The notes: a model not told the origin generated them from the sequence alone. Counted from the stretch's first letter, positions 15,786-36,631 are shown. The stretch is 64,000 nt of DNA from Carboxydocella thermautotrophica (GCA_003054495.1 CP028514.1:2310001-2374000); one strand, 5' to 3'. Made by a program: numbers and translations.

Positions 15786-15787
15786 AA

Positions 15788-17414: not shown

Positions 17415-17732
17415 CTATAAGCCTTTGCTGCCGGTTCTGATAGTATAAACTTCCTCTACGGGCGAAACAAAAATTTTACCATCACCGATATTGCCGGTTC
17501 GAGCCGTATTTTCAATAATCTTAACTGCTTTATCTGCTTCTTCATCCTGAACAACCAGCATTAATTGAACTTTAGGAAGCTCGTCATAAACAATTGGTCC
17601 CACTTGAATTCCTTTTTGCCTGCCCCGCCCAAAAACATACATTTTGGTCAAGGAAATAAAACCGGCATTTGCCAGTGCTTCCACTGTTTGTTTTTCTCTT
17701 TCCGGCCGGATAATCGCCCTGATCATTAACAT
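17415..17732 (-). CDS. nifI1: Nitrogenase-associated PII protein NifI1
   Basis: 105 aa GlnB/PII-family partner of NifI2. Seen: MLMIRAIIRPEREKQTVEAL, T-loop base FGRGRQKGI, the short T-loop ending PKVQLMLVVQDEEADK, and the B-loop GNIGDGKIFVSPVEE. Its start overlaps the nifN stop by seven bases and has GGAGGGAAAC upstream. In many anaerobes nifI1-nifI2 lie between nifH and nifD, and in heliobacteria upstream of nifH; here they follow nifN. Confidence 0.93.
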   Translation of the reverse strand: MLMIRAIIRPEREKQTVEALANAGFISLTKMYVFGRGRQKGIQVGPIVYDELPKVQLMLVVQDEEADKAVKIIENTARTGNIGDGKIFVSPVEEVYTIRTGSKGL

Positions 17733-19081: not shown

Positions 19082-20465
19082 AGACATCACTCCTTGTCAT
19101 CCGGGCAGCAGTTACCAGCTGGGACCAGACCGGGCTGAGCACAGTTGCTGCAACTTCACGGGCAAAATTGAGCATACCCTCATAGCCGGCAAAACTTTTC
19201 TTCCGTTCATGGTTAAAATCCACAAACCCCTTACCCGCCTTATAGGCCAGAGGTCGTTCTTTAACACCTCCAACAAGAACATCAGGCTGAAATTCAGCTA
19301 AAAAAGCGGATAACTCCAGGGCTCCAGCATCATCAATTATTACTCCTGTGTCTCCAAGCTCACGCTGAATTTGCTTGTATTCCTCAGCTTTCCCCGTCTG
19401 AGAACCAGCGATAACAACTTCCATTCCCAGATCCCGGAACATTTTAATTAAAGAGATGGTTTTAAATGCTCCTCCCATATAAACTGCTGCTTTTTTGCCT
19501 TTAAGCATCTGCTTGTATTGTTGTAATTCCCAGGTGATTAAATCTCTTTGTTTTATACAAAAACGACGGGCACGATATACGATTTCCTCATCCTGGCTGG
19601 CGAAAAACTGAGCAATATCCATCAACGCTTGTTCTGTATCCTGCAACCCGGCAAAACTTACTTGAAGATAAGGAATACCGTATTTTTCTTTCATTTTCCT
19701 AGCAAGGTAGGTCATTGATCCGGCACACTGAACAACATTTAATTTCGCCGTATGAGCGCGGGCAATCTCATCTACCCGGCCATCTCCAGTCAGTGTGCTA
19801 ACCACCTCTATTCCCAGAGCCTCAAGATAGTTTTTGATCACCCAGAGTTCTCCGGCGAGATTAAACTCTCCTAAAATGTTGATACTTAAGGGTGAAACAG
19901 GGGGAGGAGCAGGGTGGGTGCCGATCAGTTTCAATAAGGCGTCACAGGCTGCCCGGTACCCTGCTGATTTGTTGCCCATAAATCCTTCTGACTGCACCGG
20001 AATAACACGAATTCCTGTTTCAGCTTGAATTTGCTTGCAGACGGCCTGCAAATCATCGCCAATGATTCCGGCAATACAAGTAGCATAAACAAATACTGCC
20101 TGTGGCCGGTAATCGCGAATTATTCCGCGCAAAGCCCCCGCCAATTTGGCTTCCCCGCCGAAAATCACATCTTTTTCCTGCATATCGGTGGAAAAACTGT
20201 TACGATACAAATCCGGTCCGGAGGTTAGACTGCCACGAATATCCCAGGTGTAAGCAGCACAGCCTATTGGCCCGTGAACCAGATGAGCCGCATCAGTTAT
20301 TGGGTTTAATACCACTCTGGCGCCACAATAGACACACCCTCTCTGACTTAAAGCCCCTGCCAGGGAATTTACATCACAAACAACATCTGCTTCCTTATCC
20401 TTACGCTGGTAGCAGATTTGTTTTTCCCGGTCAGGCAGCAGGATATTTTTACAGTTTAATGCCAT
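19074..20465 (-). CDS. nifE: FeMo-cofactor scaffold protein NifE
   Basis: 463 aa, alpha-like chain of NifEN. NifD-like ligands are present: RGCVYCGARVVLNPI, HGPIGCAAYTWDIRG, YATCIAGIIGDD, plus VVQCAGSMTYLARKM at the position of the FeMo-cofactor Cys of NifD, and a nucleotide-fold C-terminal half (AAVYMGGAFKTISLIKMFRDLG). The start has AAAGGAGGGAAAG upstream. Discrimination from NifD rests on gene order and on the absence of the His ligand segment of NifD. Confidence 0.94.
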   Translation of the reverse strand: MALNCKNILLPDREKQICYQRKDKEADVVCDVNSLAGALSQRGCVYCGARVVLNPITDAAHLVHGPIGCAAYTWDIRGSLTSGPDLYRNSFSTDMQEKDVIFGGEAKLAGALRGIIRDYRPQAVFVYATCIAGIIGDDLQAVCKQIQAETGIRVIPVQSEGFMGNKSAGYRAACDALLKLIGTHPAPPPVSPLSINILGEFNLAGELWVIKNYLEALGIEVVSTLTGDGRVDEIARAHTAKLNVVQCAGSMTYLARKMKEKYGIPYLQVSFAGLQDTEQALMDIAQFFASQDEEIVYRARRFCIKQRDLITWELQQYKQMLKGKKAAVYMGGAFKTISLIKMFRDLGMEVVIAGSQTGKAEEYKQIQRELGDTGVIIDDAGALELSAFLAEFQPDVLVGGVKERPLAYKAGKGFVDFNHERKKSFAGYEGMLNFAREVAATVLSPVWSQLVTAARMTRSDVYG

Positions 20466-20495
20466 AATCTTTCCCTCCTTTCCGGAATAGAAACC

Positions 20496-21848
20496 TTACT
20501 GAACCAGCTCCAATCTGTGTTTTTCAATAAACATATCTTTCCAATCAAGCAGGGTATTGCCAATACGCTCGGCCAGCCAGGCCATTCCCCGGTAACCAAC
20601 TAGAGGAAAATGCTGCAAATTAGCCCGATCCAGGACAGGAAAACCAACGCGAACCAGAGGTATTTTTTCTTCCCGGGCGATAAATTTTCCGTAGGTATTG
20701 CCCAGCAGTAAATCTACCTTTTCTTCCTTAATCCAGCCATGCAAAGTAAATAAATCCGCTCCATTTGCAACCCTGGCTTCAGGAGTCAGGGCCTCAACCT
20801 GCCGTTGCCAGCTGTCACTCCTGGTTCCGGTTACTACATAGGCTGGAATCAGGCCCAGGGTTTTGGCCATACCCACCAGCGCCAGGGTAAGGTCGGGATC
20901 TCCATAGATAGCCACCCGTTTACCATACCAGTGAGCATGGGCATCCAGTAACATATCCATCAACCGCCCTCTTTCCTCTTCCAATTCAGGCGGAATTGGT
21001 TTTCCTGTATATTTGGCCAGGGTCATCAAGAATAGGTCTGTATTTTCAACCCCAATCGGCACAGGTAGCACTTCTAAGGGCACTTTAAATTTTTCTTCCA
21101 GATACTCTCCAGCTAAGAGATTGGCTTCTTCTCCCAGGGCAATGGTAACCTGAGCATTGGCCATATCTTTAATGTCTTCGGTCCGGGTGCCACCGTCCTG
21201 ATAAAGCTTTAATTCTCCAGTCATGGGCGCATCCAGCACACCGGACACATCCGGCAAGACAATAGCATCAATATCCATCAAGCTCAAGATGCGCTTTATT
21301 TCCCGCACATCCCCCGGGTTCACAAAGCCTGGAAGCAAATTGATTCTGGAGTTTTTTTCGCCTGGTGTGGCCAGGGCTTCTACCGCTGCTTTGATCATAT
21401 TGGCAAAACCAGTGATATGACTGCCTACATAACTGGGCGTACTGGCACTGAAGATAATCAAATCTTCCGGTACTTCCCCTGTTTTCTTCAGCTCGGCAAT
21501 AATTCCAGGAACATCATCCCCAATGGTTTCCGCTGAACAGGTAGTGTGCACAGCCACTACCTGCGGTCGATATATCTTAACCAGGTTTTTAATACCCTGC
21601 TTTAAGTTGGCACTTCCCCCAAAGACCACCTGGCCTTCAGAAAAGGAGCTGGTTGTACAGAGGGCCGGTTCCCGAAAATGCCTGGATAAATGCATGCGCA
21701 GATAAGAGGCACAACCCTGGGATCCGTGGCTGTGAGGCATACAGCCATGAATCCCCAGAGCCGCATAAACGGCTCCAATGGGTTGACAGGTTTTAACGGG
21801 ATTAACGACTAATGCTTCCCGCTCAACAGCGTAATTGACTGCCTTCAT
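20496..21848 (-). CDS. nifK: Nitrogenase MoFe protein beta chain
   Basis: 450 aa. It pairs with NifD in the MoFe protein and supplies half of the P-cluster ligands: NPVKTCQPIGAVYAALG, HGSQGCASYLRMHLSRHF and AVHTTCSAETIGDD. It lacks the long N-terminal extension of proteobacterial NifK (about 510-520 aa), as in clostridial short forms. Start 21848 follows AGGAGGGG closely; the longer open frame upstream overlaps nifD and has no ribosome binding site. Confidence 0.97.
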   Translation of the reverse strand: MKAVNYAVEREALVVNPVKTCQPIGAVYAALGIHGCMPHSHGSQGCASYLRMHLSRHFREPALCTTSSFSEGQVVFGGSANLKQGIKNLVKIYRPQVVAVHTTCSAETIGDDVPGIIAELKKTGEVPEDLIIFSASTPSYVGSHITGFANMIKAAVEALATPGEKNSRINLLPGFVNPGDVREIKRILSLMDIDAIVLPDVSGVLDAPMTGELKLYQDGGTRTEDIKDMANAQVTIALGEEANLLAGEYLEEKFKVPLEVLPVPIGVENTDLFLMTLAKYTGKPIPPELEEERGRLMDMLLDAHAHWYGKRVAIYGDPDLTLALVGMAKTLGLIPAYVVTGTRSDSWQRQVEALTPEARVANGADLFTLHGWIKEEKVDLLLGNTYGKFIAREEKIPLVRVGFPVLDRANLQHFPLVGYRGMAWLAERIGNTLLDWKDMFIEKHRLELVQ

Positions 21849-21865
21849 CTTTTTTCCCCTCCTGT

Positions 21866-23452
21866 TTACATACTTGCCCAGGGTGGAGTAATTTGTTTCC
21901 ACAGGGGATTGTTAATAGCCATATCCATATCCCGGGCAAATTGGATTGCTCCTTGAAAGCCAGTATAGGGCCCGCTATAGTCGTAAGAATGGAGCTGGCG
22001 GGAAGGTATGCCCATTTTCTGGGTCACATACCGGTCCTTAATCCCGGACAAAAACAGATCAGGTTTAATTTCTTTAATTAGAAACTCAGTTTCATAGTGG
22101 TTAAGATCATCTATTACAAAGGCCCCTTCTTTCATGTGCACCATCATGCCTTCGTAATTCATCAGGTGGTCAGGTAGTTCATGTTTTTTGCGCTCAATAA
22201 ACTGTTCATCAAAAGGGGGTTTATGGCCTGGTTGCAGCTTAAAGGTATAATCATCAATGGTTTTATGATAGGGATGGGGTTTGATTTCAGGAATGATTTT
22301 TCTACCCTCATAATCATCCCGGTGGGCAAACTGGTAGCCCGCCATAATAACTTCCATCCCTAAATCAGCGCAAAGCTCCTGATAATGATGAGAACGGGAA
22401 CCACCGGTAAAAATCATAACCTTTTTGCCTTTTAGCCGTTGCCGGTAGTATTCCAGTTGCGGCTGAATGGCCGCCAGTTCCTCGGCTATCACTTTTTCCG
22501 TATTAGCGGTTAATTGTGGATCATCAAAAAACCTGGCCATTTCCCTTAAAGATCTAATGGTTGCTTCAATACCGATGTAGTTAACTTTCAACCAGGGCAC
22601 TCCATATTTTTGCTCCATCATCTGGTTGGAATAATTGATGGAACGGTGACACATCAGGATAGATAGTTTAGCCTGATGAGCTCTGGCCAGGTCCTCGTAT
22701 TTGGCATCACCGGTAAACACGCTGACTACCCGGTAGCCGATTCGCTCCAGCAAGGGCTTAATGACCCAGACATCACCCCCGATGTTATATTCACCGAAGA
22801 TATTAATATCAAAAGGAGTTGGATTTTCCAGTTCCTGAGTCCCTACAACCCTGGTAATCACTCCGTTATTGGCAATATGGTGGCCTGCTGACTGGCTTAC
22901 GCCTTTGTACCCTTCACAGCTGAAAGCCAGCACTTTAACCCCCAGTTCCTCTTCGGCCTTTTTTGCTACGGAATGAATATCATCTCCGATTAAGCCCACA
23001 GGGCAAGTAGCATAAATCCCGATGTATTTAGGTTTAAAGATTTCATAAGCTTCCTTTATCGCCTGATAGAGCTTCTTTTCTCCACCGAAAACAATGTCCT
23101 TTTCCTGCATATCAGTGGAGAGGCAATAGTGATTGAAATAATCATAACCTTCTTCGGGAGTGGCAAAATTTCTTCTCGTGTTCCAGGTATAGAAACCGCA
23201 ACCAATCGGGCCATGGGTTATATGCAAAACGTTTTTGATCGGTCCCATCACCACTCCTTTACAGCCGGCATAAGTACAGCCCCGGTTGGTCATAATGCCA
23301 GGAATAGTGGAAACATCCGCCAGAATGTGCTGGTCAGGAGCAGCCGGGTCAATTACCACCATATGTTGTTTTCTTTCCTTGGCAATTTTAGACGGATAAT
23401 GTTCTAACATCTTTTCAAGGATCTGCTTGTGCCTTGCTTTTTCTATAGCCAT
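21866..23452 (-). CDS. nifD: Nitrogenase MoFe protein alpha chain
   Basis: 528 aa catalytic subunit holding FeMo-cofactor. P-cluster ligands: TYAGCKGVVMGPI, HGPIGCGFYTW and ATCPVGLIGDD. FeMo-cofactor ligands: Cys in SILMCHRSINY and His in SRQLHSYDYSGPYTG. It is longer than the 480-490 aa of proteobacterial NifD because of an insertion in the C-terminal half (roughly residues 375-425, containing KPHPYHKTIDDYTF and PPFDEQFIERKKHE), as known from clostridial NifD. Start 23452 has GAGAAGGGGTGG upstream. The Cys and His ligands argue for Mo- rather than V- or Fe-only nitrogenase, and nifEN is present. Confidence 0.97.
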   Translation of the reverse strand: MAIEKARHKQILEKMLEHYPSKIAKERKQHMVVIDPAAPDQHILADVSTIPGIMTNRGCTYAGCKGVVMGPIKNVLHITHGPIGCGFYTWNTRRNFATPEEGYDYFNHYCLSTDMQEKDIVFGGEKKLYQAIKEAYEIFKPKYIGIYATCPVGLIGDDIHSVAKKAEEELGVKVLAFSCEGYKGVSQSAGHHIANNGVITRVVGTQELENPTPFDINIFGEYNIGGDVWVIKPLLERIGYRVVSVFTGDAKYEDLARAHQAKLSILMCHRSINYSNQMMEQKYGVPWLKVNYIGIEATIRSLREMARFFDDPQLTANTEKVIAEELAAIQPQLEYYRQRLKGKKVMIFTGGSRSHHYQELCADLGMEVIMAGYQFAHRDDYEGRKIIPEIKPHPYHKTIDDYTFKLQPGHKPPFDEQFIERKKHELPDHLMNYEGMMVHMKEGAFVIDDLNHYETEFLIKEIKPDLFLSGIKDRYVTQKMGIPSRQLHSYDYSGPYTGFQGAIQFARDMDMAINNPLWKQITPPWASM

Positions 23453-23474
23453 AGTTCCACCCCTTCTCAGTTTG

Positions 23475-24465
<991 letters not shown>

Positions 24466-26427: not shown

Positions 26428-26459
26428 ACAAGGCCGCTTTCAAAATTCAGCGGCCTTGT
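26428..26459 (-). terminator. Terminator at the end of the Met-rich membrane cluster
   Basis: Perfect inverted repeat ACAAGGCCGCT / AGCGGCCTTGT with a ten-base loop, followed in the minus direction by TTTTTTGTT. It closes the transcript of the cluster starting near 33.2 kb. Confidence 0.85.
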
Positions 26460-26465: not shown

Positions 26466-27083
26466 TTACACAGTTTGTGGTTCAGCATTAGGGGTATTTG
26501 GGGCTTCATTTACAGTTTGTACCCTGTTTACAGTAGTTCCGCAGGCAGGACAGTGCTGCCAGTCAGCATTCAAGCCCTTTCCGCATTTTACACAATAAGC
26601 CCGGGCCTGATTGTTTTTAAAGAATACACTCTTGTTATCTCCCTCGGTGAGATACTTTTTCAAAAAGACTACCAGTCCCACTACTAATCCAACAATCAAT
26701 AAAATGGCAAATAGGTATATGGCAAAATTGAAAATCCCTGTCAGCAATCCGGTAAAATCCCCGTTTTGCAAACCAAAACCTGATGCGTTGGTCTGCATGT
26801 GATTGGCCATGCCAGTCATAACACTTGGGTCATAAGGCATATGTCCCACACTGCCGGAAATGTTGAACTGCCCGTATACCGGCATGTGCCCCATGGGCAT
26901 TTGTCCCGTCGCCATTTGATCCATTGGCATTGGCCCCATTGGCATTTGAGCCATCGGCATTGGCCCCATTGCCATTTGGTCCATTGGCATTTGTCCTTGG
27001 GACATAGAACCCATCATATCCATATCCATTCCCATGTTGTTCATAGAGCCACCAGAACCGCCCATTCCGCCCATCATCATCAT
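26466..27083 (-). CDS. Met-rich membrane protein with C-terminal zinc ribbon
   Basis: 205 aa, function unknown. Residues 1-70 are extremely Met-rich with repeats of the type MPMxQM / MGPMPM (more than 25 Met), resembling copper(I)-binding Met motifs. One hydrophobic segment follows near 110-140 (IFNFAIYLFAILLIVGLVVG), then a zinc ribbon CVKCGKGLNADWQHCPACG. The Met-rich part would face outside if the ribbon is cytoplasmic. Start 27083 is the first of four ATGs, eight bases after AGGAGG; the ATG in another frame (27090) is too close to it. It is last in the cluster. Confidence 0.85.
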   Translation of the reverse strand: MMMMGGMGGSGGSMNNMGMDMDMMGSMSQGQMPMDQMAMGPMPMAQMPMGPMPMDQMATGQMPMGHMPVYGQFNISGSVGHMPYDPSVMTGMANHMQTNASGFGLQNGDFTGLLTGIFNFAIYLFAILLIVGLVVGLVVFLKKYLTEGDNKSVFFKNNQARAYCVKCGKGLNADWQHCPACGTTVNRVQTVNEAPNTPNAEPQTV

Positions 27084-27117
27084 CGTCCATTCCTCCTTTT
27101 ACTTACTTCTATTTGAC

Positions 27118-27513
27118 TTACATCATAGGCATGTTGGACATACCACTATTCATATTGGCTTTCATTTGCTCGTGTAATTGATGTAGCGTCTGCCGCATTT
27201 GCTGCATCTGCATTCTCATCATTTGCATGTTGTAGTACATAGCAGGTAACATATTATTGTAATATTCTGCTTGCCCCTGGTTCATCTGGAAGTGCTGTGG
27301 CATATTCCCCATATAATTGTGATTGGGATAACCTTCAAATGCCTGACCCTGGTACTGAACAACCGCAGCTCCCTGTTGCCCGTGTACCATTGCCGAACCG
27401 CCATGGGCGCTACTGTCACCACCTGATATGGCCTGGATTAGATTTAAGCCCAGAATACTGAAAACCAGACCTGCCAGGGAGACTACCGCCAATCTAAGCC
27501 ACCTGTTATCCAT
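27118..27513 (-). CDS. Met-rich single-span membrane protein
   Basis: About 131 aa, function unknown. A signal-anchor near the N-terminus (WLRLAVVSLAGLVFSILGLNLI) is followed by a His/Gly/Gln-rich stretch and a Met/Gln-rich C-terminus with a heptad-like run (MYYNMQMMRMQMQQMRQTL) that may form a helix or bind soft metals. The start is set at the ATG 27513, 11 bases after AGGAGG; GTG 27525 and TTG 27522 directly adjoin that site. It sits between two other small cluster genes. Confidence 0.75.
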   Translation of the reverse strand: MDNRWLRLAVVSLAGLVFSILGLNLIQAISGGDSSAHGGSAMVHGQQGAAVVQYQGQAFEGYPNHNYMGNMPQHFQMNQGQAEYYNNMLPAMYYNMQMMRMQMQQMRQTLHQLHEQMKANMNSGMSNMPMM

Positions 27514-27534
27514 ATTCTCCAACACCTCCTTTCT

Positions 27535-27705
27535 CTAGTGCATTGGCATCTGGTAATAGTTATGCATTGGTCGACCATACGGCATATAATTCATATGCCC
27601 GCCTTGATTAATGAAACCCCAAGGGCCAAAAAACAGATCAAGGATAAGGTTTAAGATGATTATCGCAATGAAGGAAAACAAGGCTAATTTAAACCACTTG
27701 TTCAT
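27535..27705 (-). CDS. Small single-span membrane protein with Met/His/Tyr-rich tail
   Basis: 56 aa. It starts MNKWFKLALFSFIAIIIL, a transmembrane helix, followed by FFGPWGF and a tail of Met, His, Tyr and Pro (GHMNYMPYGRPMH then NYYQMPMH). The ATG has AGGGGGG upstream and overlaps the end of the preceding zinc-ribbon gene by 17 bases, supporting translation. The tail composition links it to the Met-rich neighbours. Not recognised as any known family. Confidence 0.75.
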   Translation of the reverse strand: MNKWFKLALFSFIAIIILNLILDLFFGPWGFINQGGHMNYMPYGRPMHNYYQMPMH

Positions 27706-28198
27706 TGTTCTTCCCCCCCTCTTTGTTGTTTTCTATTGCCTGGCCGCAGCTGGGACAATATTCCCATTCGGCCAATAATTCCTTACCACACTGGAAACAG
27801 TCTTTTTTCAAACTTTCTTTACACCGGGGGCAAAAACGAAATTCTTCCGTTAAGCGTTCTCCGCATTTGGGGCATACCAATTGATTCCCCTTCATTTTGT
27901 CCACAAGCAGACTGAAATCGACAGTATTAAACTCGGCCAAATACTGTTTACCCCATTCGTACAATCCTGCCAGGACCCCTACCAGAACCAGTATCCATAA
28001 AATTTTGATTGTTAAATTGATCAAACCAAATAATAATCCTCCTATAGCTACACCTGTAGCCGCTGTTCCTGGTAAATATTCCCTATACGTTCCTGGAGTT
28101 GAAGATATCTGGGAAAAAATCAACCATAATAAAAGTACCCCACCCAACACAATTACTACATTTTTCCAGTTGGTGTTGTTTTCTTGTGGCTTACCCAT
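27689..28198 (-). CDS. Membrane protein with double zinc ribbon
   Basis: About 169 aa, function unknown. Two hydrophobic segments (NVVIVLGGVLLLWLIF near residue 15 and ILWILVLVGVLAGLYEWG near 70) precede a cytoplasmic part with four CxxC pairs (CPKCGERLTEEFRFCPRC and CFQCGKELLAEWEYCPSCG), a double zinc ribbon. The start is set at ATG 28198, with GGCAGGTGACAGGG upstream; the GTG at 28207 lies within that site. The same ribbon type recurs in three nearby genes, suggesting a common cytoplasmic partner. Confidence 0.8.
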   Translation of the reverse strand: MGKPQENNTNWKNVVIVLGGVLLLWLIFSQISSTPGTYREYLPGTAATGVAIGGLLFGLINLTIKILWILVLVGVLAGLYEWGKQYLAEFNTVDFSLLVDKMKGNQLVCPKCGERLTEEFRFCPRCKESLKKDCFQCGKELLAEWEYCPSCGQAIENNKEGGKNNEQVV

Positions 28199-28237
28199 CC
28201 CTGTCACCTGCCTTTCTGTAGAAAAGTCAGCAGTTCT

Positions 28238-28339
28238 TTACATTTGTCCTGTAGTCAAATGATGAATGAAATATCCAATTGCGCCTATGATCGCCAGGGA
28301 AACGACTACAATTGCAGCAATCATTCCCTTGTTGTTCAT
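28238..28339 (-). CDS. Very small single-span membrane protein
   Basis: 33 aa. MNNKGMIAAIVVVSLAIIGA makes one transmembrane helix, followed by IGYFIHHLTTGQM. The strong site AAAGGAGGTAATGGT before the ATG and its place in a tightly packed cluster support it as a real gene. A role as a small subunit of the membrane apparatus is inferred only from context. Confidence 0.65.
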   Translation of the reverse strand: MNNKGMIAAIVVVSLAIIGAIGYFIHHLTTGQM

Positions 28340-28398
28340 ACCATTACCTCCTTTCTTCTCTTGCTCTAGTTTAATCCTAAAACAACGTTATGGAGTTT

Positions 28399-28812
28399 TT
28401 ATGGAGAATGGGAAAAATCTGCGAAAAAAATTTTTTCCATCTGATTAAGCTGATTCTCCATAACTTCCAACTGCCAATCCATATTCGCAATAATAGCGCC
28501 ATAATTAACCGGTTGCATTACGGGCGAAAAATTACTACTGTTGCCATGATTATGATTCTCCTGTCCTGCTCCAAGAGTTTGTAATACTCCTAACGAAAAT
28601 ACGCTCAAAAACAAAAACGCAGCTGAAATATAGGCAAGCCGTAACCATTGTGGCTGTTGCCCTTTAGAACGACCTGTTCTTTTTCCAGTTTCTGGTTCAG
28701 CCCAGACCAGCGTCCGGTCAATTGCCTTCAATGCCAGCAACCCCAGACCAATTACCATTACCACTATCATTAAATAAACATATAGATTTCCCACCTGAGC
28801 CAGGTTATACAT
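28399..28812 (-). CDS. Two-span membrane protein of unknown function
   Basis: About 137 aa. Helix 1 is LYVYLMIVVMVIGLGLLALKA. A basic cytoplasmic loop (GKRTGRSKGQQPQWLR) follows, then helix 2 (LAYISAAFLFLSVFSLGVL) and an external tail with His/Asn-rich NHNHGNSSN and Met residues. ATG 28812 lies eight bases after AGCGGGG; GTG 28821 is too close. No family recognised. It is part of the Met-rich/zinc-ribbon cluster. Confidence 0.7.
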   Translation of the reverse strand: MYNLAQVGNLYVYLMIVVMVIGLGLLALKAIDRTLVWAEPETGKRTGRSKGQQPQWLRLAYISAAFLFLSVFSLGVLQTLGAGQENHNHGNSSNFSPVMQPVNYGAIIANMDWQLEVMENQLNQMEKIFFADFSHSP

Positions 28813-28825
28813 ATCCTTCACCCCG

Positions 28826-29158
28826 CTAAAACCAAAGTACTAACAACAAGACCACTCCACCGGCTAAAATAGGTACAAGCAAAAATATTGCCACAGTAGT
28901 CAAAAAAGCCATCCCTTCCAGCAATGATGTTAATAGATGGTGTCCGGATAAATTCCCCATACCGTGGTCTTCTGCTCCCTGCCTTAGTAAAATAGCTGGC
29001 GTGATTTGCCCGGCATGATGGACTTTCATCATCCCTCCCATACTCAGTCCCATACCGGTCATCTGTTCCGACAGGTTTTGCCGGTTAGCAAACAAACCGG
29101 CCAAAGTTAGAAAGCCAAATAAAATCACCAGAATCCAAAAACTCGATTTTTTATCCAT
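28826..29158 (-). CDS. Two-span membrane protein with external Met/His loop
   Basis: 110 aa. N-terminal helix SFWILVILFGFLTLAGLF; central loop with MTGMGLSMGGMMKVHHAG and a further His-rich HGMGNLSGHH; C-terminal helix TVAIFLLVPILAGGVVLLLVL. The loop composition (Met plus His) fits copper or other soft-metal coordination. The start overlaps the preceding stop by eight bases and has GAGGAGGGTGCG upstream. Unknown family. Confidence 0.75.
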   Translation of the reverse strand: MDKKSSFWILVILFGFLTLAGLFANRQNLSEQMTGMGLSMGGMMKVHHAGQITPAILLRQGAEDHGMGNLSGHHLLTSLLEGMAFLTTVAIFLLVPILAGGVVLLLVLWF

Positions 29159-29450
29159 TCTTTCGCACCCTCCTCATCTTGAGGATGGCCCCAATAAAGG
29201 CTCCGGCAAAAATCGCCGGGAATACCAGAGCTCCGGTTTTGGTCAACAAGGCACTGACAAAACCATGATTTTCTAAAGCCCAGCCCATGAGAGAGTTATG
29301 CATGGCACTCATCATGCCATGCATCCACCTCATCGTTTGTTCCTCCGTCGGTCCTGGACTAAAAAGGGATATAATCACTCCGGTCATGACAAAAAAATAA
29401 AAAGTAGCACTAAACCAAGCTAATAATTTATACCAGCTTTTTTTTAACAT
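29151..29450 (-). CDS. Small multi-span membrane protein
   Basis: 99 aa. Two hydrophobic helices (LLAWFSATFYFFVMTGVIISLF and ALVFPAIFAGAFIGAIL) flank a loop with MRWMHGMMSAMHNSLMG, another Met/His-rich segment. The C-terminus KMRRVRKNG is basic, so it is probably cytoplasmic. The ATG has GGAAGGATAAA upstream, and the gene starts one base after the stop of the cytochrome b561-like gene. Function unknown. Confidence 0.75.
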   Translation of the reverse strand: MLKKSWYKLLAWFSATFYFFVMTGVIISLFSPGPTEEQTMRWMHGMMSAMHNSLMGWALENHGFVSALLTKTGALVFPAIFAGAFIGAILKMRRVRKNG

Positions 29451-29451
29451 T

Positions 29452-29913
29452 TTATCCTTCCCCCAGTTCCAGCGGTAAACCGTGGGCCTTATCGTATATG
29501 TGCCAAATTATTACCGGCACTGAAATAAGGGTTAAAAGATCATGGATTACTACTGCAAAAGCAAGAGTAACATGAGAAAAACCTTCACAAACCCAAATCA
29601 AAATTCCGCTGAAGGCAAAAAGTAATGTTGATACCAGTACGAAAATACCCATCCCTGATTTTTTTACCACCAGCCAGGCAGTACTTCCCTGATAATGACC
29701 TGATAACTTGGTTACCTCAATGAAAACGGCGACTAGAGTCAGCAGTATAAATACTGCGGCCAGAGTCCGGTGTAAATAATCGGCCCAGGCCAGTTGATAA
29801 TCCATCAACCAGCCAGTTTTAGCCCCCATCAACACCAGGCCGCTAATCAGCAATAAACCGAAGACAACTGCATACAACCAGTGCAGGAGAAAATCAAGCT
29901 TAATTTCTTTCAC
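29452..29913 (-). CDS. Four-helix membrane protein, cytochrome b561/DUF4405-like
   Basis: About 153 aa. Four hydrophobic helices with His in matching places: LDFLLHWLYAVVFGLLLISG, YLHRTLAAVFILLTL, and AVVIHDLLTLISVPVIIWHIYDKAHG. This is the pattern of small di-heme cytochrome b proteins such as DUF4405 and formate-dehydrogenase gamma-like subunits, so heme binding and transmembrane electron transfer are plausible. The start is GTG 29913 with GGGAGTGAGG upstream, overlapping the previous gene by 14 bases. It is the only likely redox membrane carrier in the cluster. Confidence 0.75.
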   Translation of the reverse strand: MKEIKLDFLLHWLYAVVFGLLLISGLVLMGAKTGWLMDYQLAWADYLHRTLAAVFILLTLVAVFIEVTKLSGHYQGSTAWLVVKKSGMGIFVLVSTLLFAFSGILIWVCEGFSHVTLAFAVVIHDLLTLISVPVIIWHIYDKAHGLPLELGEG

Positions 29914-30247
29914 TTGCCGCCTCACTCCCACAATAGGGACAACAATTCCAGTGGTTCCCCAATTTCTGCCCACAATTTAGACACACCCTCCTGCTGTCCA
30001 CCTGCCTAACTAATTGTTGCCACAGCGGTCCAGCCTGTTCTTTCAGCAAACTGTAAAACCCGTAAATAAACATTCCTACCAGAACAAGCATTAATAACTG
30101 GATAACAACGTTAATTATCCCTGTATATTTGACCATCATCTGATTGGGACCGAAGAGCAGGGAAAAGAGTAAATCAAAAAAGATTAATCCTAGTACCAGT
30201 ACCAGCAAGACCCTTATGAGCTCATTATTTTTCAGTTCACTTAGCAT
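29900..30247 (-). CDS. Two-span membrane protein with C-terminal zinc ribbon
   Basis: 115 aa. Helices VLLVLVLGLIFFDLLFSLLFG and IINVVIQLLMLVLVGMFIYGFY are followed by a single zinc ribbon CLNCGQKLGNHWNCCPYCG at the C-terminus. The organisation matches the other ribbon-tailed membrane proteins of the cluster. Its ATG overlaps the preceding stop codon (TGATG). Function unknown; the ribbon is predicted to be cytoplasmic. Confidence 0.8.
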   Translation of the reverse strand: MLSELKNNELIRVLLVLVLGLIFFDLLFSLLFGPNQMMVKYTGIINVVIQLLMLVLVGMFIYGFYSLLKEQAGPLWQQLVRQVDSRRVCLNCGQKLGNHWNCCPYCGSEAASERN

Positions 30248-31089
30248 CAGACATCACTCTTTCCTGCCTGCGCCTGGGGCTTAAGCAGGCTGTTAATAAA
30301 CCCGACCAGGGAAGCAAAAATACCGAACAGAGATAAGAACAAGATTCCATAAATTACGTATACTACTGAATTGACGTTGAGTAAGTTAGCTAAACCACCC
30401 AATCCTCCTGTATGGCTGGCGTTCTGATGTCCGCTGGCCATCTGATTGTTAGATTGGGTATTGGGTTGGGTATTGGGCTGGATATTGGGCTGGGTACCGG
30501 GATATTGATATGGCACATAGTTCTGATAAGGTTGGACCGGATAAGGATATACTGGATAGTAATAGGATTGAGGCTGTTGCGGTTGAACCAGGTAGTAATT
30601 TACTCCGGCTTGCCGGGTTTGGTTTATATCCTGAGCCATTGCTTTTTGCGCTATATCCAGCAAAGTTAACCCCTGGGCCATCTTGTAAATACCGGTATGG
30701 ATTTTCTCCATATCAACCCCATCACTTTTTTTCGTCTGTCCCCCATTCTTCTCCCCGGGCAAATCTCCCGCCTGTGGCTGGCTATCATACATTTGCCCAC
30801 CTAAAATCAACTCTGCTCCCTGTTTAATAATTGAATTTGCTTCCTCCATTTTTTTCAAAGTATCTTCCGGAGCGGCGATTTCCTTAACAATAATCTTGGG
30901 GGTTTGTTCGCTGGCATCTTTTGGCTTTTCTTTCGGTATCTGTTCTTGCATCTGGTCCTGGTTCTGTTGCTGCGCTGCATTATGCCCATTGGAATTACCG
31001 TGATTGAACCCTACTAAAGCTCCTCCCACTGCGACAATTACTACCAAAACAACAATTAACGACCCCAAAATCCACTTTAATACCCTCAT
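30247..31089 (-). CDS. Bitopic membrane protein with Tyr/Pro/Gln-rich external region
   Basis: 280 aa. An N-terminal helix (WILGSLIVVLVVIVAVGGALVG), a charged, helical external segment (about 60-150), then low-complexity Tyr/Pro/Gln sequence (QSYYYPVYPYPVQPY), Asn/Gln/Pro repeats (QPNIQPNTQPNTQ) and a C-terminal hydrophobic pair VVYVIYGILFLSLFGIFASL. AAAGGAGGAAAAAAG precedes the ATG. It is first of the small genes after the two-component system. Not recognised; it may act as an envelope scaffold. Confidence 0.75.
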   Translation of the reverse strand: MRVLKWILGSLIVVLVVIVAVGGALVGFNHGNSNGHNAAQQQNQDQMQEQIPKEKPKDASEQTPKIIVKEIAAPEDTLKKMEEANSIIKQGAELILGGQMYDSQPQAGDLPGEKNGGQTKKSDGVDMEKIHTGIYKMAQGLTLLDIAQKAMAQDINQTRQAGVNYYLVQPQQPQSYYYPVYPYPVQPYQNYVPYQYPGTQPNIQPNTQPNTQSNNQMASGHQNASHTGGLGGLANLLNVNSVVYVIYGILFLSLFGIFASLVGFINSLLKPQAQAGKSDV

Positions 31090-31109
31090 TCTTTTTTCCT
31101 CCTTTGTTT

Positions 31110-32489
31110 TTATTTATTGGGTATGGTTACAATAACTTCTGTCCCCTTCCCCACCTCACTGGTAACCTGTATTTTCCCTTGATGAGCCTCTACAATAGCC
31201 TTGACAATAGCCAAACCGATACCGGCACCTCCGGTAGAACGAGCGCGGGAAGCATCTGCTCGATATAAACGGTCAAAAATATAGGGTAGATCCTTTTTAG
31301 CAATACCTATACCGTTGTCATTTACAACGATGTGGCTCAAGCCGCCCCGTTGAAACACATTAATAAAAACCTCACCACCTTCCGGAGTATATTTCAAACT
31401 ATTGGTTAATAAGTTAACAACAACTTGCCCAATTTTTTCCCGGTCAGCAATGATTTCACACGGCTGCCCGCTGAAAGTCAGGGCAATCTTTTTTTTATAG
31501 AAATCCCGTTGAAAATTAGTTATAATGTTATTTACCAAACTTGACAAATCAAACTTAACTTTATTGAGTTCTATCTGTCCGGTATCGTATTTATTAAGTT
31601 TTTCCAGATCATTTACCAGACTGGTCATTCTTAAAATTTCCTCATGACAGCTGATTAACCGTTCTCTGGTTGGCTCCCAAATCCCCTCTATTAAAGCCTC
31701 TAGATGACTTTGCAAGGTTGCTAAAGGTGTTCGCAGCTCATGGGCTATATCTGCAGTTAATCGCTTATTGCTTTCCTCCTGTTCTCGCAAATCCTCTTCC
31801 AGTTGTTTTATTGCATAGGCCAATTCTTTTATTTCACTGATTTTAGTATCGATCAATTTATCGCGAAAACTTTGCCGTCTTGACGCTATCTCTTTAGCCG
31901 CTTCTACTATTGCCCCTAATTGACGGCCCATTGTTTCAGAAATTCGGGTACTGAACAATAAAACCATCAAAAAAGAAATTCCAGCTATTACTAGCAACGA
32001 TTTATTCAATGAATTTAAGAAAAGGATGTCATGTTCATTTAAAAAATAAGTATCATAATAACTAATTGTTAATTTCCCAATGGACAAATTATCCGGGCTT
32101 TTAAGCGGATATTCTTTAGTAATCAACGAAGGCTTGACAGTTTTAAAATATACCCCTGCCCGTGCCTGGATCTGTTCCAGCGTCTGCCGGTATGTTTGTG
32201 GATCAATCTGTTGCGGTGACCACAGGGTCTGACCCTGGCTATCTGTTAGAGTTATTAAATAACCTTTCGCCAACATTTCCTGACCTGATTTGCTGATTTG
32301 CTCCCGATTCCATTTACCATCCCTGTAAAATTCGGTAAATTCTTTTACAATTTTAAGATGTTCCTCACTCTGCAGTTCATGGATATAATTTAAAAAATGC
32401 TCGTTGATCAGCATGTGCGTGGCAAGGGTAACCAGAAAAATTGTCACTACCGCCAATGCACCATGGGTTAACAGCATCAACCAGCGCAA
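31110..32489 (-). CDS. Sensor histidine kinase of the Met-rich cluster
   Basis: About 459 aa membrane kinase. Transmembrane helix 1 (LLTHGALAVVTIFLVTLATHML), an external sensor of about 130 residues, helix 2 (SLLVIAGISFLMVLLFS), a HAMP-like linker, phospho-acceptor His in TADIAHELRTPLATLQSHLE, and ATPase boxes VVNLLTNSLKYTPEGG, VNDNGIGIAKKDL and GGAGIGLAIVKAIVEAHQG. The start is uncertain: TTG 32489 is far from the GGAGGAGG site, and a CTG six bases earlier is possible. It is paired with the response regulator directly upstream. The signal is unknown; metal or envelope stress fits the cluster. Confidence 0.9.
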   Translation of the reverse strand: MRWLMLLTHGALAVVTIFLVTLATHMLINEHFLNYIHELQSEEHLKIVKEFTEFYRDGKWNREQISKSGQEMLAKGYLITLTDSQGQTLWSPQQIDPQTYRQTLEQIQARAGVYFKTVKPSLITKEYPLKSPDNLSIGKLTISYYDTYFLNEHDILFLNSLNKSLLVIAGISFLMVLLFSTRISETMGRQLGAIVEAAKEIASRRQSFRDKLIDTKISEIKELAYAIKQLEEDLREQEESNKRLTADIAHELRTPLATLQSHLEALIEGIWEPTRERLISCHEEILRMTSLVNDLEKLNKYDTGQIELNKVKFDLSSLVNNIITNFQRDFYKKKIALTFSGQPCEIIADREKIGQVVVNLLTNSLKYTPEGGEVFINVFQRGGLSHIVVNDNGIGIAKKDLPYIFDRLYRADASRARSTGGAGIGLAIVKAIVEAHQGKIQVTSEVGKGTEVIVTIPNK

Positions 32490-32500
32490 ACGCAGAATTA

Positions 32501-33202
32501 TCAGCCTCCTCCTCCGAATTTATAACCAAAGCCATGCACTGTTAAAATAAACTGAGGGTGTTTGCTGTCCTTTTCAATTTTCTGTCGAAGATTTTTGATA
32601 TGAGTATCAATAGCACGTTCATTACCGGTGTAATCATAACCGAAAACCCTGATTACCAATTCATCCCGGCTAAAAACCCGTTGCGGGTTTTTACACATGG
32701 TTATCAAAATCTTGTATTCACTGGGAGTTAAATTTATATGTTTCCCCTCCACTTTAACTTCATGGGTAATTGTATCAATTTCTAAATAGCCATTGGCAAA
32801 AGTCAATTTATCTGACTTTATCTGCTCAGAGTCATCTGTCCTTCTTAATATTGCTCTCACCCGGGCCATTAATTCCTGGGGGCTGAAAGGTTTGACAATA
32901 TAATCGTCTGCCCCTAATTCCAAGCCATTGATTCTGGATTCTACCTGACTTTTAGCAGTTAGCATAATAATGGGAACCCCGGATTTCTTTCTTATCTCCA
33001 TACAAACTTTTTCACCACTGATATCAGGCAACATTAAATCCAAAATAATCAAGTCGGGATTAAATAATTGAAACCTCTTCAACGCCTGGCTCCCATCAAA
33101 GGCACAATCTACCTTATAACCTCCTTTTTGCAGGTAAGAGGTAATAACCTCAACAATTTTTTTCTCGTCATCTACTACCAGGATTTTCTTGGGAAACGCC
33201 AA
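32501..33202 (-). CDS. OmpR/PhoB-type response regulator
   Basis: 233 aa. Receiver domain with VVDDEKKIVE, phospho-acceptor Asp in LIILDLMLPDISG and Lys in DDYIVKPFS. A winged-helix DNA-binding domain (LTPSEYKILITMCKNPQRVF to TVHGFGYKF) follows. The start is TTG 33202, eight bases after AGGAGGTG. It is the first gene of the leftward cluster and is divergent from the multicopper oxidase, so it likely controls both directions from the shared intergenic region. Confidence 0.94.
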   Translation of the reverse strand: MAFPKKILVVDDEKKIVEVITSYLQKGGYKVDCAFDGSQALKRFQLFNPDLIILDLMLPDISGEKVCMEIRKKSGVPIIMLTAKSQVESRINGLELGADDYIVKPFSPQELMARVRAILRRTDDSEQIKSDKLTFANGYLEIDTITHEVKVEGKHINLTPSEYKILITMCKNPQRVFSRDELVIRVFGYDYTGNERAIDTHIKNLRQKIEKDSKHPQFILTVHGFGYKFGGGG

Positions 33203-33279
33203 ATTTATCACCTCCTGTCGTAGTTTCAATTATTTTAGTGTAGCTAATTTCTTTCTACGATAATATTCAACAACAAATT

Positions 33280-33339
33280 TGTGTAGATTTTATGTAAAAA
33301 CCGTGAAAAATTTGCGAACTAAGTCACTTTCTCTACACA
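33280..33339. promoter_or_regulatory. Candidate operator: inverted TGTGTAGA repeats in the divergent promoter region
   Basis: TGTGTAGA at 33280-33287 and its complement TCTACACA at 33332-33339, with a related GTGTAG near 33237, in the 185-base gap between the response regulator and the multicopper oxidase gene. OmpR-type regulators bind repeated short half-sites, so these are candidates; no direct evidence. Confidence 0.4.
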
Positions 33340-33387
33340 GAATCTCCACATTCGACATGTAAAATGATGTCAAAAGGAGGTAATGCT

Positions 33388-34980
33388 ATGCACAGGATAA
33401 ACAGGCGCGATTTTTTAAGATATTCCGGCTTTGCAGGATTTTCTTTGCTCACAGGAGGAATCGGAGCTATCCTTGAAGGCTGTACCATTCACTCAACCAA
33501 AACACCGAAAAGTTTTGTCACCCCTTTGATTGTTCCTGACACCGCTGGACCTCTAGCTCTTTTTAAACCCGATTCTGAAACTTTTAAAATAGAAGCAGGT
33601 ACAGCGAAATTAAAAATCGTCAATGAGAAAGAATCTTTATTAAATGTATATAAAATAAAACACCAGGAAAAAACTCTAATTAACCCAACAATATTGGTGC
33701 AAAAAGGCCAGGAACTCAGGGTCACCCTGGAGAACGGTCTATCCGAAGATACTATAATTCACTGGCATGGTTTAATGGTGGAAGATAAAATGGATGGTCA
33801 TCCTGCTTATGCTATTAAACCTGGTGAAAGGTATGAGTATAAATTTAAAGTGAAAAATCGTGGTGGTACATACTGGTATCACCCTCATCCAGAAAACCTT
33901 ACTGCAAAACAGGCATATAAAGGATTAGCGGGAATTCTACTGGTTGAAGATGAAGAGGAACTGCAGCTGCGTCAATCTCTGGAATTGGAACTGGGAAAAA
34001 ACGACATACCTCTGGTAATCCAGGATAAGCGTTTTGACCAAGCAGGTAACATACTATATAACCCTGATGATATGGAAAAAATAATGGGTTTTCATGGAAA
34101 CAAGGTTCTGGTAAACTTAACTTTAAATCCGCTCCTCAAAGTAGCCAAAAAATTTTATCGTTTCAGGATATTAAATGGTTCTAATGCCAGAATCTATTGT
34201 TTATCGTTGCATAGTGAACAGCGAAGGGATTTTATCCCTATCTACTTAATAGGAACTGATGGTGGTCTTCTTGATAAACCATACAAAATTAATAAATTTT
34301 TTATCTCTCCAGGGGAAAGAGCTGACATACTGGTTGATTTCACCTCATTCAATACCGGTGAGGAATTGTTTTTTAAAAGCCTGGCCTTCGACCCTATGGA
34401 CAATGAAGATGCAGAAAACATGGATAATATGGGTATGCAACATGATTCATTAAAAGCAGGAGAAGAAATTAATATACTCAAAATTGTCATCAACCGGGAA
34501 ACAGAAAAAACGTTTAAAATTCCCCAAAACTTATCTAGCCTAAAACCAATTAATATTAAGGATTCATTGACCAGAAAATTCAGGTTATCATTTATAGGTA
34601 AACAGTGGCAAATTAATGGTCAAACTTTTAATATATCGCAGTTTCCTGTAATTGTTAAGAAACACAGCAAAGAAATATGGGAAATTGCTAATGATAAAAA
34701 AAGCATGCCTCATCCGATGCATTTGCATGGTTTTATGTTTCAAGTTCTGCAGCGTTTGAATAGCCCGAAACAAGTACAGGACCTTGCTATTGACCAAAGT
34801 GGTCGAACCGCTATGGACCTGGGTTGGAAAGATACGGTTTTAATTTGGCCAGGGGAAACAGTAAGGATAGCCATCGACTTCACCCATGATTTCACCGGAG
34901 ATCAGGTTTACCTGTTTCATTGCCATAATCTCGAACATGAAGATCTCGGCATGATGCTCAATCTAAAAGTTAAAGAATAA
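33388..34980 (+). CDS. Tat-exported multicopper oxidase
   Basis: 530 aa, CueO/CotA/laccase family. The twin-arginine signal NRRDFLRYSGFAGFSLL is followed by LEGC, a non-standard lipobox, so it may be a lipoprotein. All four copper-ligand segments are present: HWHGLM, WYHPHPEN, HPMHLHGF and HCHNLEHEDLGMM (Cys type 1, Met axial). The family oxidises Cu(I), Mn(II), Fe(II) or phenols with O2. A Met-rich stretch (ENMDNMGMQHD) resembles the substrate-copper region of CueO. Start 33388 has AAAGGAGGTAATGCT upstream. It is divergent from the two-component system and the Met-rich cluster. An O2-dependent enzyme in an otherwise anaerobic-looking genome is notable. Confidence 0.93.
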   Translation: MHRINRRDFLRYSGFAGFSLLTGGIGAILEGCTIHSTKTPKSFVTPLIVPDTAGPLALFKPDSETFKIEAGTAKLKIVNEKESLLNVYKIKHQEKTLINPTILVQKGQELRVTLENGLSEDTIIHWHGLMVEDKMDGHPAYAIKPGERYEYKFKVKNRGGTYWYHPHPENLTAKQAYKGLAGILLVEDEEELQLRQSLELELGKNDIPLVIQDKRFDQAGNILYNPDDMEKIMGFHGNKVLVNLTLNPLLKVAKKFYRFRILNGSNARIYCLSLHSEQRRDFIPIYLIGTDGGLLDKPYKINKFFISPGERADILVDFTSFNTGEELFFKSLAFDPMDNEDAENMDNMGMQHDSLKAGEEINILKIVINRETEKTFKIPQNLSSLKPINIKDSLTRKFRLSFIGKQWQINGQTFNISQFPVIVKKHSKEIWEIANDKKSMPHPMHLHGFMFQVLQRLNSPKQVQDLAIDQSGRTAMDLGWKDTVLIWPGETVRIAIDFTHDFTGDQVYLFHCHNLEHEDLGMMLNLKVKE

Positions 34981-34989
34981 AAAACAAAA

Positions 34990-35024
34990 GCCCTCAACCC
35001 CTTCTTTCGGTACAGGTTGAGGGC
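34990..35024. terminator. Terminator between multicopper oxidase and ParM-like gene
   Basis: Perfect 10-bp inverted repeat GCCCTCAACC / GGTTGAGGGC with a 15-base loop, between two convergent genes. Confidence 0.8.
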
Positions 35025-35038
35025 GTAATTATCTTTAA

Positions 35039-36190
35039 TTACCTCAAAGACAGTAGACTAAATTCTTCTTTTTCTACACTATCGGAATTCTTAACAAAAC
35101 GTTTACTCAGTATTCTGGCATTCTTCCAGGCACCTAAAGCATTAAGCATAATGGGGTTTTCGGCAAATAGCAAAGGCACGGGCTCCAATAATTCCTTGAT
35201 AATATCTTTATATAACAGCGAACCACCACCATATAAAATTAGTCCGGAAATATCCGGCAACTGGATGCCTGCAGCTGTCGCCTTGGAAATAAACTCTTCT
35301 ATCAATTGTCTACCTTCCTGTTCTATGTACTGCCGACATATCTGATTGAATTCAGGTATTTCTTTGCCATAACATAGTAAATTTCCGTCACCAATAATAA
35401 CACTATCTACTTTATGCCTTGGTATACTCACTTTATATTCAGTTTTTATGTAGTCTAAAATTCGGTTTGCGGGATCAATGGTCCCACGGTCAATCCCAAA
35501 AAAAGTACGCGGTTCCAGATTGTCCAGCACAGTTACGTCAGAGGTTAATGAGCCGATATCTAGCCCCAAAATCATCTTTTCCCCAAAACGGCTTGCCACT
35601 TGCTGTATAATTTCTCCTTCTTCATCATACATCAGTGCATTTAAAGCACAGAGACCTTCGGGCTGAATATCCACTTCCAATATATCAAATTCCACTTCCA
35701 CTCCATTAAATATCGGATTTAAGAATTTAACTTTATGAGTTCCAAGCAAGGAATTACGCAAAATATTAATATTATCCTGTTGATTAGCAAAATATTCCTC
35801 GGTTGGTAGCATTGTGCCGAGAATTATTTCTTCTTTTATCTGCTTACAGTTGGGTTTCAGCAGCGAAACTGCAATCGCAGTCAAGAGGACAATTCTAGTT
35901 TGCAAATCTTTGGCCTTGCCCTTATGCCGGTCAGCAACAGTCCTCTCTTTTATGATACCTCTGTTAAAATTATAGGCCATTTTTCCGACGAAATATCTGC
36001 CCAGATTTTGCCCGGAGCTCAAGATTTCTACTTCCAGGAGGTTTAACGGGTTACGAGTATCATCATTTACAACTCTTCTGGCATGCCAGGGAGCCGATAT
36101 ATTTAATATACAAAATTCCCTTTTTGTAGGCCCGATAATTTTAAATGCATCATTACCCAAATCTGCACCCACGGTTAAATAATCCTTCAT
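35039..36190 (-). CDS. ParM/Alp-type actin-like ATPase
   Basis: 383 aa actin/Hsp70-fold protein resembling plasmid-segregation ParM. Seen: phosphate-1 loop VGADLGNDAFKIIG, phosphate-2 loop ILGLDIGSLTSDVTVLDN, adenosine motif LILYGGGSLLYKDI. Such proteins form dynamic filaments. No ParR-like adaptor or parC repeat array is adjacent, so a plasmid-type partition role is not supported here; a chromosomal filament of unknown function or a remnant of an integrated element are alternatives. Start 36190 has GAGGGGTGGAAGCG upstream. It ends with a charged tail (VEKEEFSLLSLR). Confidence 0.85.
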   Translation of the reverse strand: MKDYLTVGADLGNDAFKIIGPTKREFCILNISAPWHARRVVNDDTRNPLNLLEVEILSSGQNLGRYFVGKMAYNFNRGIIKERTVADRHKGKAKDLQTRIVLLTAIAVSLLKPNCKQIKEEIILGTMLPTEEYFANQQDNINILRNSLLGTHKVKFLNPIFNGVEVEFDILEVDIQPEGLCALNALMYDEEGEIIQQVASRFGEKMILGLDIGSLTSDVTVLDNLEPRTFFGIDRGTIDPANRILDYIKTEYKVSIPRHKVDSVIIGDGNLLCYGKEIPEFNQICRQYIEQEGRQLIEEFISKATAAGIQLPDISGLILYGGGSLLYKDIIKELLEPVPLLFAENPIMLNALGAWKNARILSKRFVKNSDSVEKEEFSLLSLR

Positions 36191-36315
36191 CGCTTCCACC
36201 CCTCAAGTTTAGTTTAGCTAAGGTAATTATACCTAATCCAAGTAAACCTATCAATATATTCTGGTTTATTTCCCATTATTCGACATTTATTCTGATAAAT
36301 CGATTGGTTTCGCTT

Positions 36316-36379: not shown

Positions 36380-36631
36380 TTGGCTGGTTCAATTGATACA
36401 TGTGAAAAATGCGGGAAGCCTGTCAGAGAAGAATGGAACTACTGCCCTTTTTGTAAACATCAGCCAGTACTTACCCGCTGCCCGCATTGTCTAAAAAAAG
36501 TAAAACTGCGCTGGCAGTATTGTCCTTTTTGTCGCGCCAATATCAAGGGAAACCGCACGACTGCCACAATAAACGCAGAAGCTAATGCCTGGCTCCGAGC
36601 AATATTGGAATCCACTGTAGCCACGAAATAA
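36380..36631 (+). CDS. Small double zinc-ribbon protein
   Basis: 83 aa soluble protein. Two ribbons, CEKCGKPVREEWNYCPFC and CPHCLKKVKLRWQYCPFC, are followed by a short helical tail. The TTG start has AGAGGTGAATCGT upstream and a good promoter. The WxYCPFC pattern matches the ribbons on the membrane proteins of the Met-rich cluster, so a shared partner is possible. Otherwise unknown; ribbons of this type mediate protein or nucleic-acid contacts. Confidence 0.85.
   Translation: MAGSIDTCEKCGKPVREEWNYCPFCKHQPVLTRCPHCLKKVKLRWQYCPFCRANIKGNRTTATINAEANAWLRAILESTVATK

Follow-up and report, generated by a model that had tools for sequence, protein, structure and literature searches.

The window analysed here, a stretch of 64,000 nucleotides that corresponds to chromosome bases 2310001–2374000 of Carboxydocella thermautotrophica, carries an operon of small membrane proteins whose five-gene core would probably form an envelope module that handles Cu(I), is redox-active and is coupled to menaquinone; we give this reading a probability of about 0.58. 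The core consists of P280, a di-heme cytochrome b, P99, P110 and P140 (the number in a protein name is its length in amino acids), and all five genes were found in one order in 17 of 17 modules spread over approximately 11 Bacillota-type genomes. Copper-type P-ATPases lie near these modules far more often than expected by chance, which supports the inference that copper is the metal handled. Gene content, gene order, co-inheritance, folds and neighbours are described below as read from the sequence. C. thermautotrophica, an anaerobe of hot springs, has been reported as a thermophile that lives by the hydrogenogenic oxidation of CO, and strain 41T has been reported to have a chromosome of 2,690,058 bp and a plasmid of 53,067 bp (PMC6085454).

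Gene Organization and the Conserved Core

The operon contains 11 small open reading frames (ORFs) at 26466–31089 on the minus strand, in the order P280, P115, cytochrome b, P99, P110, P140, P33, P172, P56, P135 and P205. Each has at least one predicted transmembrane (TM) segment, 7 of the 10 junctions are overlaps or gaps of less than 10 bp, and the widest gap is 59 bp, in agreement with the original prediction of about eleven tightly packed genes for small membrane proteins; P33 and P56 are shorter than the 60-aa minimum of the initial ORF listing. A GC-rich hairpin followed by a T run, read by eye at approximately 26430–26455, lies at the 3′ end. The features of the operon are as follows:

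30247..31089, minus strand: P280, with a TM segment, an external helical hairpin with the invariant His131, a low-complexity linker and a C-terminal TM segment; core
29900..30247, minus strand: P115, with two TM segments and one cytoplasmic zinc ribbon; the slot is conserved, the ribbon is not
29452..29913, minus strand: di-heme cytochrome b of the HyaC/FdnI type; core
29151..29450, minus strand: P99, with two TM segments and the conserved external Met motif WMxGMMxxMHxSLMG; core
28826..29158, minus strand: P110, with two TM segments, an external MGxxM motif and the invariant His74; core
28399..28821, minus strand: P140, with two TM segments and a C-terminal tail that is very Met-rich in homologues; core
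28238..28339, minus strand: P33, 33 aa with a single TM segment; recurrent
27689..28207, minus strand: P172, with TM segments and a cytoplasmic double zinc ribbon (DZR, 5e-11)
27535..27705, minus strand: P56, with a single TM segment and an external tail of the Met/His type; belongs as a paralogue to the P135/P140 tail family
27118..27525, minus strand: P135, with a single TM segment and an external tail; Met 14.8%
26466..27083, minus strand: P205, with an external Met-repeat N-terminus, one TM segment and a cytoplasmic zinc ribbon; Met 14.6%

No family in Pfam or NCBIfam was found for P99, P110, P140, P135 or P280, so that four of the five core families are unmatched there and the fifth is the di-heme cytochrome b; the view that this is an unrecognised envelope system is thereby upheld, and no description of the module was found in the open-licence literature. 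Relatives of P110 were found in 4 of 101 related genomes (own genome counted) and relatives of P99 in 7 of 398 genomes of the phylum (own species counted); nine loci came from a scan across 84,980 species, and a further draw of genomes around one of these added two more places. The modules were found through P99, whose presence in all of them is therefore trivial, and the other four core genes were free to be absent. The slot between P280 and the cytochrome b usually holds a zinc-ribbon or TM protein, and two-component control is present in several module genomes. A same-species genome has 99.7% identity across 16 kb of the locus, which, together with the core synteny in 17 modules, argues that the locus is not a product of chance; the original prediction had turned on whether such a neighbourhood recurs in other genomes, and it does.

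The pairwise distances of P280, the cytochrome b, P99 and P110, the four best-aligned proteins, correlate at 0.84–0.91, a value that partly reflects shared genome ancestry, and three genomes carry a second module type, whose copies are one another's nearest relatives in each of these four proteins. The correlated distances and the clustering of the second type indicate that the module moves and duplicates as a unit, and the core appears to be co-inherited as the subunits of one complex would be. One record, "Calditrichales bacterium MX18-03" (L015/L061), carries a doubtful label, its drawn relatives including the Clostridia metagenome-assembled genome G401; a spread beyond Bacillota is therefore not claimed. 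The GC content is 42% in the operon and 38% in the multicopper oxidase (MCO) gene beside it, versus 49% published for the chromosome (PMC6085454), a drop that would fit acquisition from elsewhere; the low-GC stretch (38–42%) spans window positions 26466–36199. A plasmid origin was rejected, no match to the cytochrome b being found among 72,556 plasmids.

The Di-Heme Cytochrome b

The start of the cytochrome b gene is most likely GTG at 29913, which gives a protein of 153 aa. PF01292 is matched by 14 of 14 homologues, with a best value of 2.9e-10; the window protein alone scores 29.2 bits against a cut-off of 30.1, and a profile of the family finds FdnI of formate dehydrogenase-N at 4e-4. In the AlphaFold2 model (151 residues, predicted local distance difference test (pLDDT) 79), four helices are formed, and the best structural match is HyaC, the cytochrome b of hydrogenase-1 (Foldseek probability 1.00; VIA Z 12.8), followed by superoxide oxidase (5oc0, Z 11.6) and FdnI. 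H9, H46, H122 and H136 are invariant in 14 aligned sequences, their spacing resembling that of the FdnI heme ligands; by analogy, the four histidines would be the heme ligands, and the protein could pass electrons to or from the quinone pool. The di-heme cytochrome b of the original prediction is thus recovered as a b561-type protein. CopD is weakly touched by only 2 of the 14 homologues.

Met-Rich Proteins and Zinc Ribbons

Around the cytochrome stand several methionine-rich proteins, as had been predicted, with Met contents of up to 14.8% in P135 and 14.6% in P205. P99 has the invariant residues M43, M47, M50 and M55 in the loop between its two TM helices, and P110 likewise combines two TM helices with MGxxM and an invariant histidine; the positive residues at the ends of both proteins suggest that these loops lie outside. 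P280 contains a helical hairpin with an invariant histidine, duplicated in some homologues; its AlphaFold2 model is poor (pLDDT 57, predicted template modelling score 0.29), and comparison of its profile with the PDB returned nothing credible. P140 and its single-TM paralogues carry Met-rich tails with up to 56 Met per 255 residues. Three zinc-ribbon proteins were also borne out, P115 and P205 having single, sub-threshold ribbons and P172 a clear double one; as a general feature, the ribbons did not hold up. The equivalent gene in L013, L014, L015 and L058 encodes no Cys, and the zinc ribbon is therefore an optional part and not essential.

Association with Copper Genes

Six of 10 genomes have a copper-type P-ATPase, counted only when over the TIGR01511 cut-off, at most 15 kb from a module, where 0.26 would be expected by chance (P about 2e-8, a figure that treats the genomes as independent, so that the true P is larger, the excess remaining great). 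Copper as the metal, proposed by the original prediction, gains support from this excess. Most of the genomes have copper-homeostasis genes in the vicinity. In addition, CopZ-like proteins, HMA–DsbD fusions and DUF326 proteins recur near modules, and the sole PF10080 (FtrD-like) gene of G146, G399, G400 and G804 adjoins a module; no such gene was found in G035 or G401, and that of Carboxydocella is located at 1.906 Mb, away from the locus. Since the Carboxydocella locus has neither an ATPase nor an FtrD-like gene nearby, copper would be assigned there by comparison with the homologues and from the MCO and Met motifs of the locus.

Two-Component System and Multicopper Oxidase

Upstream of the operon lies a two-component pair (31110–33229, minus strand), from which the gene of an MCO exported by the twin-arginine translocation (Tat) pathway diverges, as the original prediction had described:

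31110..32489, minus strand: sensor histidine kinase; two TM helices flank its external sensor region
32501..33202, minus strand: response regulator of the OmpR family; TTG at 33202 is preferred (233 aa), and the ORF opens at 33229
33230..33363, no strand: divergent promoter region, with three CTACAC/GTGTAG hexamers in 134 bp
33364..34980, plus strand: Tat-exported MCO, McoP/CueO-like, with PF07731, PF07732 and PF00394 over cut-off; accessory

The kinase scores 183 bits against TIGR01386 (cut-off 292.6) and the response regulator 167 bits against TIGR01387 (cut-off 279.2), both below the threshold. Two of the promoter hexamers form the inverted pair TGTGTAGA...TCTACACA, and the hexamers are possible sites of the response regulator.

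The MCO has the Tat motif RRDFLR, three cupredoxin domains and the four copper-ligand motifs HWHG, WYHPHP, HPMHLHG and HCHNLEH, at 133, 171, 450 and 519, respectively. It scores 102.8 bits against TIGR01480 (copper_res_A; cut-off 478.95) and 308.6 bits against the CueO equivalog NF008205 (cut-off 525), below both; the closest solved MCO is McoP of Pyrobaculum, which has been reported to be a metallo-oxidase efficient with cuprous and ferrous ions (PMC11111587). The MCOs of L018 and L059 are closest to copper_res_A, a subfamily other than that of Carboxydocella, and the same core therefore sits with different enzymes of the cuprous-oxidase type. An MCO adjoins the module in Carboxydocella, G001, G399 and G401, and a fragment of one does so in G400; G058 has an MCO away from its module, and no PF07731 MCO was found in G035 (a complete genome), G146 or G259 (63% complete). 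Because these three module genomes have none, the MCO is dispensable and was rejected as an obligate part of the module. The original prediction had taken the O2-using oxidase to point to defence against air or metal, and this idea of O2 and an MCO cannot account for the core; its envelope interpretation stands as regards an unrecognised system, copper and a possible exchange with quinone, and falls as regards the MCO and O2 as a general explanation.

Two of these loci show broken genes. In G001 (L010, 12623–13932), the module-linked MCO is split across two adjacent ORFs; in Pseudobacteroides cellulosolvens (L060, 5086–11625), one of two module copies looks frame-broken, the cytochrome b and the response regulator each lying in two ORFs and the MCO being a 58-aa fragment.

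Comparison with Known Systems

Among known systems, the Pco/Cop system of Gram-negative bacteria (PcoABCDRSE) is similar in having a Tat-exported MCO, a two-component system, Met-rich external binders and a polytopic membrane protein. It differs in that CopB, CopC and CopD (PF05425) were not matched at E ≤ 1 by any of the ten scanned proteins of the window, and in that four core families here are unrelated to any Pco part. The module is not a member of the Pco/Cop system, since its MCO is below the copper_res_A cut-off, CopC and CopD are not matched and the regulators fall below the heavy-metal two-component models; the best reading is that it does roughly the job of Pco/Cop with unrelated, undescribed parts. 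The cytochrome shares the four-helix fold, the histidine pattern and PF01292 with HyaC and FdnI; however, it is shorter, and among its partners the place of a hydrogenase or dehydrogenase is taken by Met-rich proteins with two TM segments. MnxEFG is likened here by description only, as an MCO with small accessory subunits according to the title of PMC5622069, and differs in that the present core occurs without any MCO. As for FtrABCD/P19, an FtrD-like domain recurs next to the module, but the FtrD-like gene is not at the Carboxydocella locus and no permease was seen among the flanking genes scanned.

Proposed Mechanism and Alternative Explanations

In the mechanism that we propose, the kinase would sense metal at the cell surface and the operon would be switched on; P99, P110, P280 and the Met-rich tails would then bind Cu(I) on the outside of the single membrane. 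Electrons would pass through the di-heme cytochrome b between this copper and menaquinone, the most plausible direction being outward from menaquinol. The Cu(II)/Cu(I) couple at Met sites lies well above menaquinone in potential, and electrons should therefore flow from menaquinol to copper. Cu(II) would thus be reduced and kept as Cu(I) on the Met sites, the module acting as a cupric reductase and a Cu(I) store, and the export or oxidation of Cu(I) would be left to accessory enzymes that differ by genome: an MCO, which would oxidise Cu(I) given O2 or some other oxidant; an ATPase that exports copper; CopZ; or an FtrD-like protein. In genomes that have them, the cytoplasmic zinc ribbons may serve as docking sites for partners in the cytosol, including an actin-like filament that some genomes encode nearby. 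Defence against air is a possible function. We infer the identity of the metal, the direction of the electrons and the role of the filament from the features described above.

Several points weigh against this reading, in addition to the shared ancestry of the genomes in the ATPase count. No copper ATPase lies near the locus in Carboxydocella, G035, G401 (a 13.7-kb contig) or G804; the best NCBIfam scores of the response regulator are to MtrA, RpaB and YycF and not to copper regulators; and the Met-rich tails are of low complexity, with exact motifs that drift. The Met-rich regions could equally bind silver or serve as oxidant sinks. The electron direction is drawn from general redox potentials, and the reading as a whole is built on sequence.

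It is also conceivable, if unlikely, that the module removes oxidants through copper, electrons passing from menaquinol through the di-heme b to external copper and on to an MCO that reduces O2 (or N2O) and protects the anaerobe as a terminal reductase without a heme–copper oxidase. Such a flow would run downhill; an MCO adjoins the module in the four genomes named above, with the fragment in G400, and a 2010 title cited in PMC11111587 gives nitrous oxide reductase activity for the nearest solved enzyme, McoP. This quinol-driven removal of O2 is nevertheless a rival only, because its path is completed by an MCO that three module genomes (G035, G146 and the 63% complete G259) do not have, and the MCO of G058 is elsewhere. 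Oxidation of superoxide or radicals is quite unlikely: here the b561 protein would work like the superoxide oxidase of E. coli (CybB), with superoxide as electron donor and quinone as acceptor, and the Met tails would soak up oxidants, Met side chains being oxidant sinks. Superoxide oxidase is indeed among the closest folds to the cytochrome model, but HyaC ranks over it, by only about 1 Z unit, and the copper neighbours are left unexplained. Where MsrA (PF01625) is present, it is on other contigs or far off, and none was found in 5 of 10 genomes (Carboxydocella (G000), G001, G058, G035 and G398; MsrB and MsrP were not searched), which disfavours an oxidant sink of Met residues recycled by MsrA.

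Oxidation or uptake of iron or manganese in the manner of FtrABCD or Mnx, in which the b cytochrome and an FtrD-like partner would carry the electrons of metal oxidation, has a similarly small probability. FtrD-like PF10080 proteins and polyferredoxins are neighbours in several genomes, and an MCO in some; no FTR1 permease or P19-like protein was seen among the scanned flanking genes, and the neighbours found are copper ATPases, CopZ and an MCO of the copper_res_A type. A passive copper or silver sponge, in which metal is simply sequestered by the Met-rich proteins and the cytochrome b has no part, is very unlikely; the Met-rich tails are many and variable, as a sponge would have them, but the cytochrome b is missing from none of the 17 modules, and its four candidate heme-ligand histidines do not vary in the 14 aligned sequences. 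Separately, a role in dissimilatory Fe(III) reduction was rejected, since strain 41T carries the cluster yet does not reduce Fe(III) (PMC6085454).

The Actin-Like ATPase and Other Neighbouring Genes

The conserved neighbourhood reaches to the right as far as 36631, past the limit of 34980 set by the original prediction, which left out an actin-like ATPase and a small zinc ribbon protein:

35039..36199, minus strand: actin-like ATPase (ALP/ParM family), with intact nucleotide-binding motifs; conserved neighbour in five genomes
36380..36631, plus strand: small protein with a double zinc ribbon; in four genomes its gene diverges from that of the actin-like ATPase

Relatives of ParM are known for moving DNA. 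The present ATPase resembles that family in scoring 37.8 bits against PF17989 (ALP_N; cut-off 26.3), with the motifs DLGND, DIGSLTSD and GGG, and in matching the ParM structures 4xhp/4xe8; it differs in that its gene adjoins a membrane module and is not on a plasmid, its plasmid relatives reaching at best 29% identity. Relatives at 63–64% identity occur in G001, G398, G399 and G401, each adjoining a module. Among 398 phylum genomes, four have a match at E < 1e-30, of which three close ones are module carriers and the fourth (31%) is not; since these three comprise two genomes of a single species and one more from the same order, the link is suggestive and not decisive. The gene is lacking in five module genomes (G058, G035, G146, G259 and G400) and was not seen beside the G804 module, which makes it an accessory. 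A protein of 93–108 aa follows the actin-like gene in G001, G399, G398 and G401, none being found beside the Carboxydocella gene; sought as a ParR/parC partner, it had no match in Pfam or NCBIfam. A ParM-family filament, docked through the cytoplasmic zinc ribbons, might position or assemble the copper-binding, quinone-linked complex and organise, in the manner of MamK, a patch of membrane that handles metal in an anaerobe of the Gram-positive type; the proposal is speculative and rather doubtful. Chromosome-encoded ParMs (cParMs) of unclear function are known, and the parts of PMC12270681 that were consulted describe them with no mention of a link to a membrane module.

Elsewhere in the window, a cluster resembling nitrogen-fixation genes can be recognised by eye at 12887–24413 on the minus strand, with NifH-like (23475) and NifD-like (21866) proteins, more nitrogenase-like proteins as far as 17726 and a radical SAM protein at 16098; it also includes genes resembling those for molybdate transport and one resembling a homocitrate synthase gene. 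The word "nitrogenase" is absent from the C. thermautotrophica genome paper (PMC6085454). An Rfam scan of the window detected no RNA family. In G001, the region downstream of the module (L010, 15755–17363) encodes two small c-type cytochromes that are membrane-anchored and bear CARCHGPGGMRS/CAGCHNPGGMRS motifs.

Significance

Anaerobes meet copper mostly as Cu(I), the more toxic form, and cuprous oxidases driven by O2 are unreliable for them. If the proposed Cu(I)-handling module is real, the coupling of Met-rich copper sites at the cell surface to the quinone pool would solve this problem in another way; if another metal or electron path were proven, its placement within envelope copper handling would have to be reconsidered. 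The tie to the actin-like ATPase, if functional, would be a further surprise. Through the proposed role, four membrane protein families missing from Pfam and NCBIfam would be named and given their first function.

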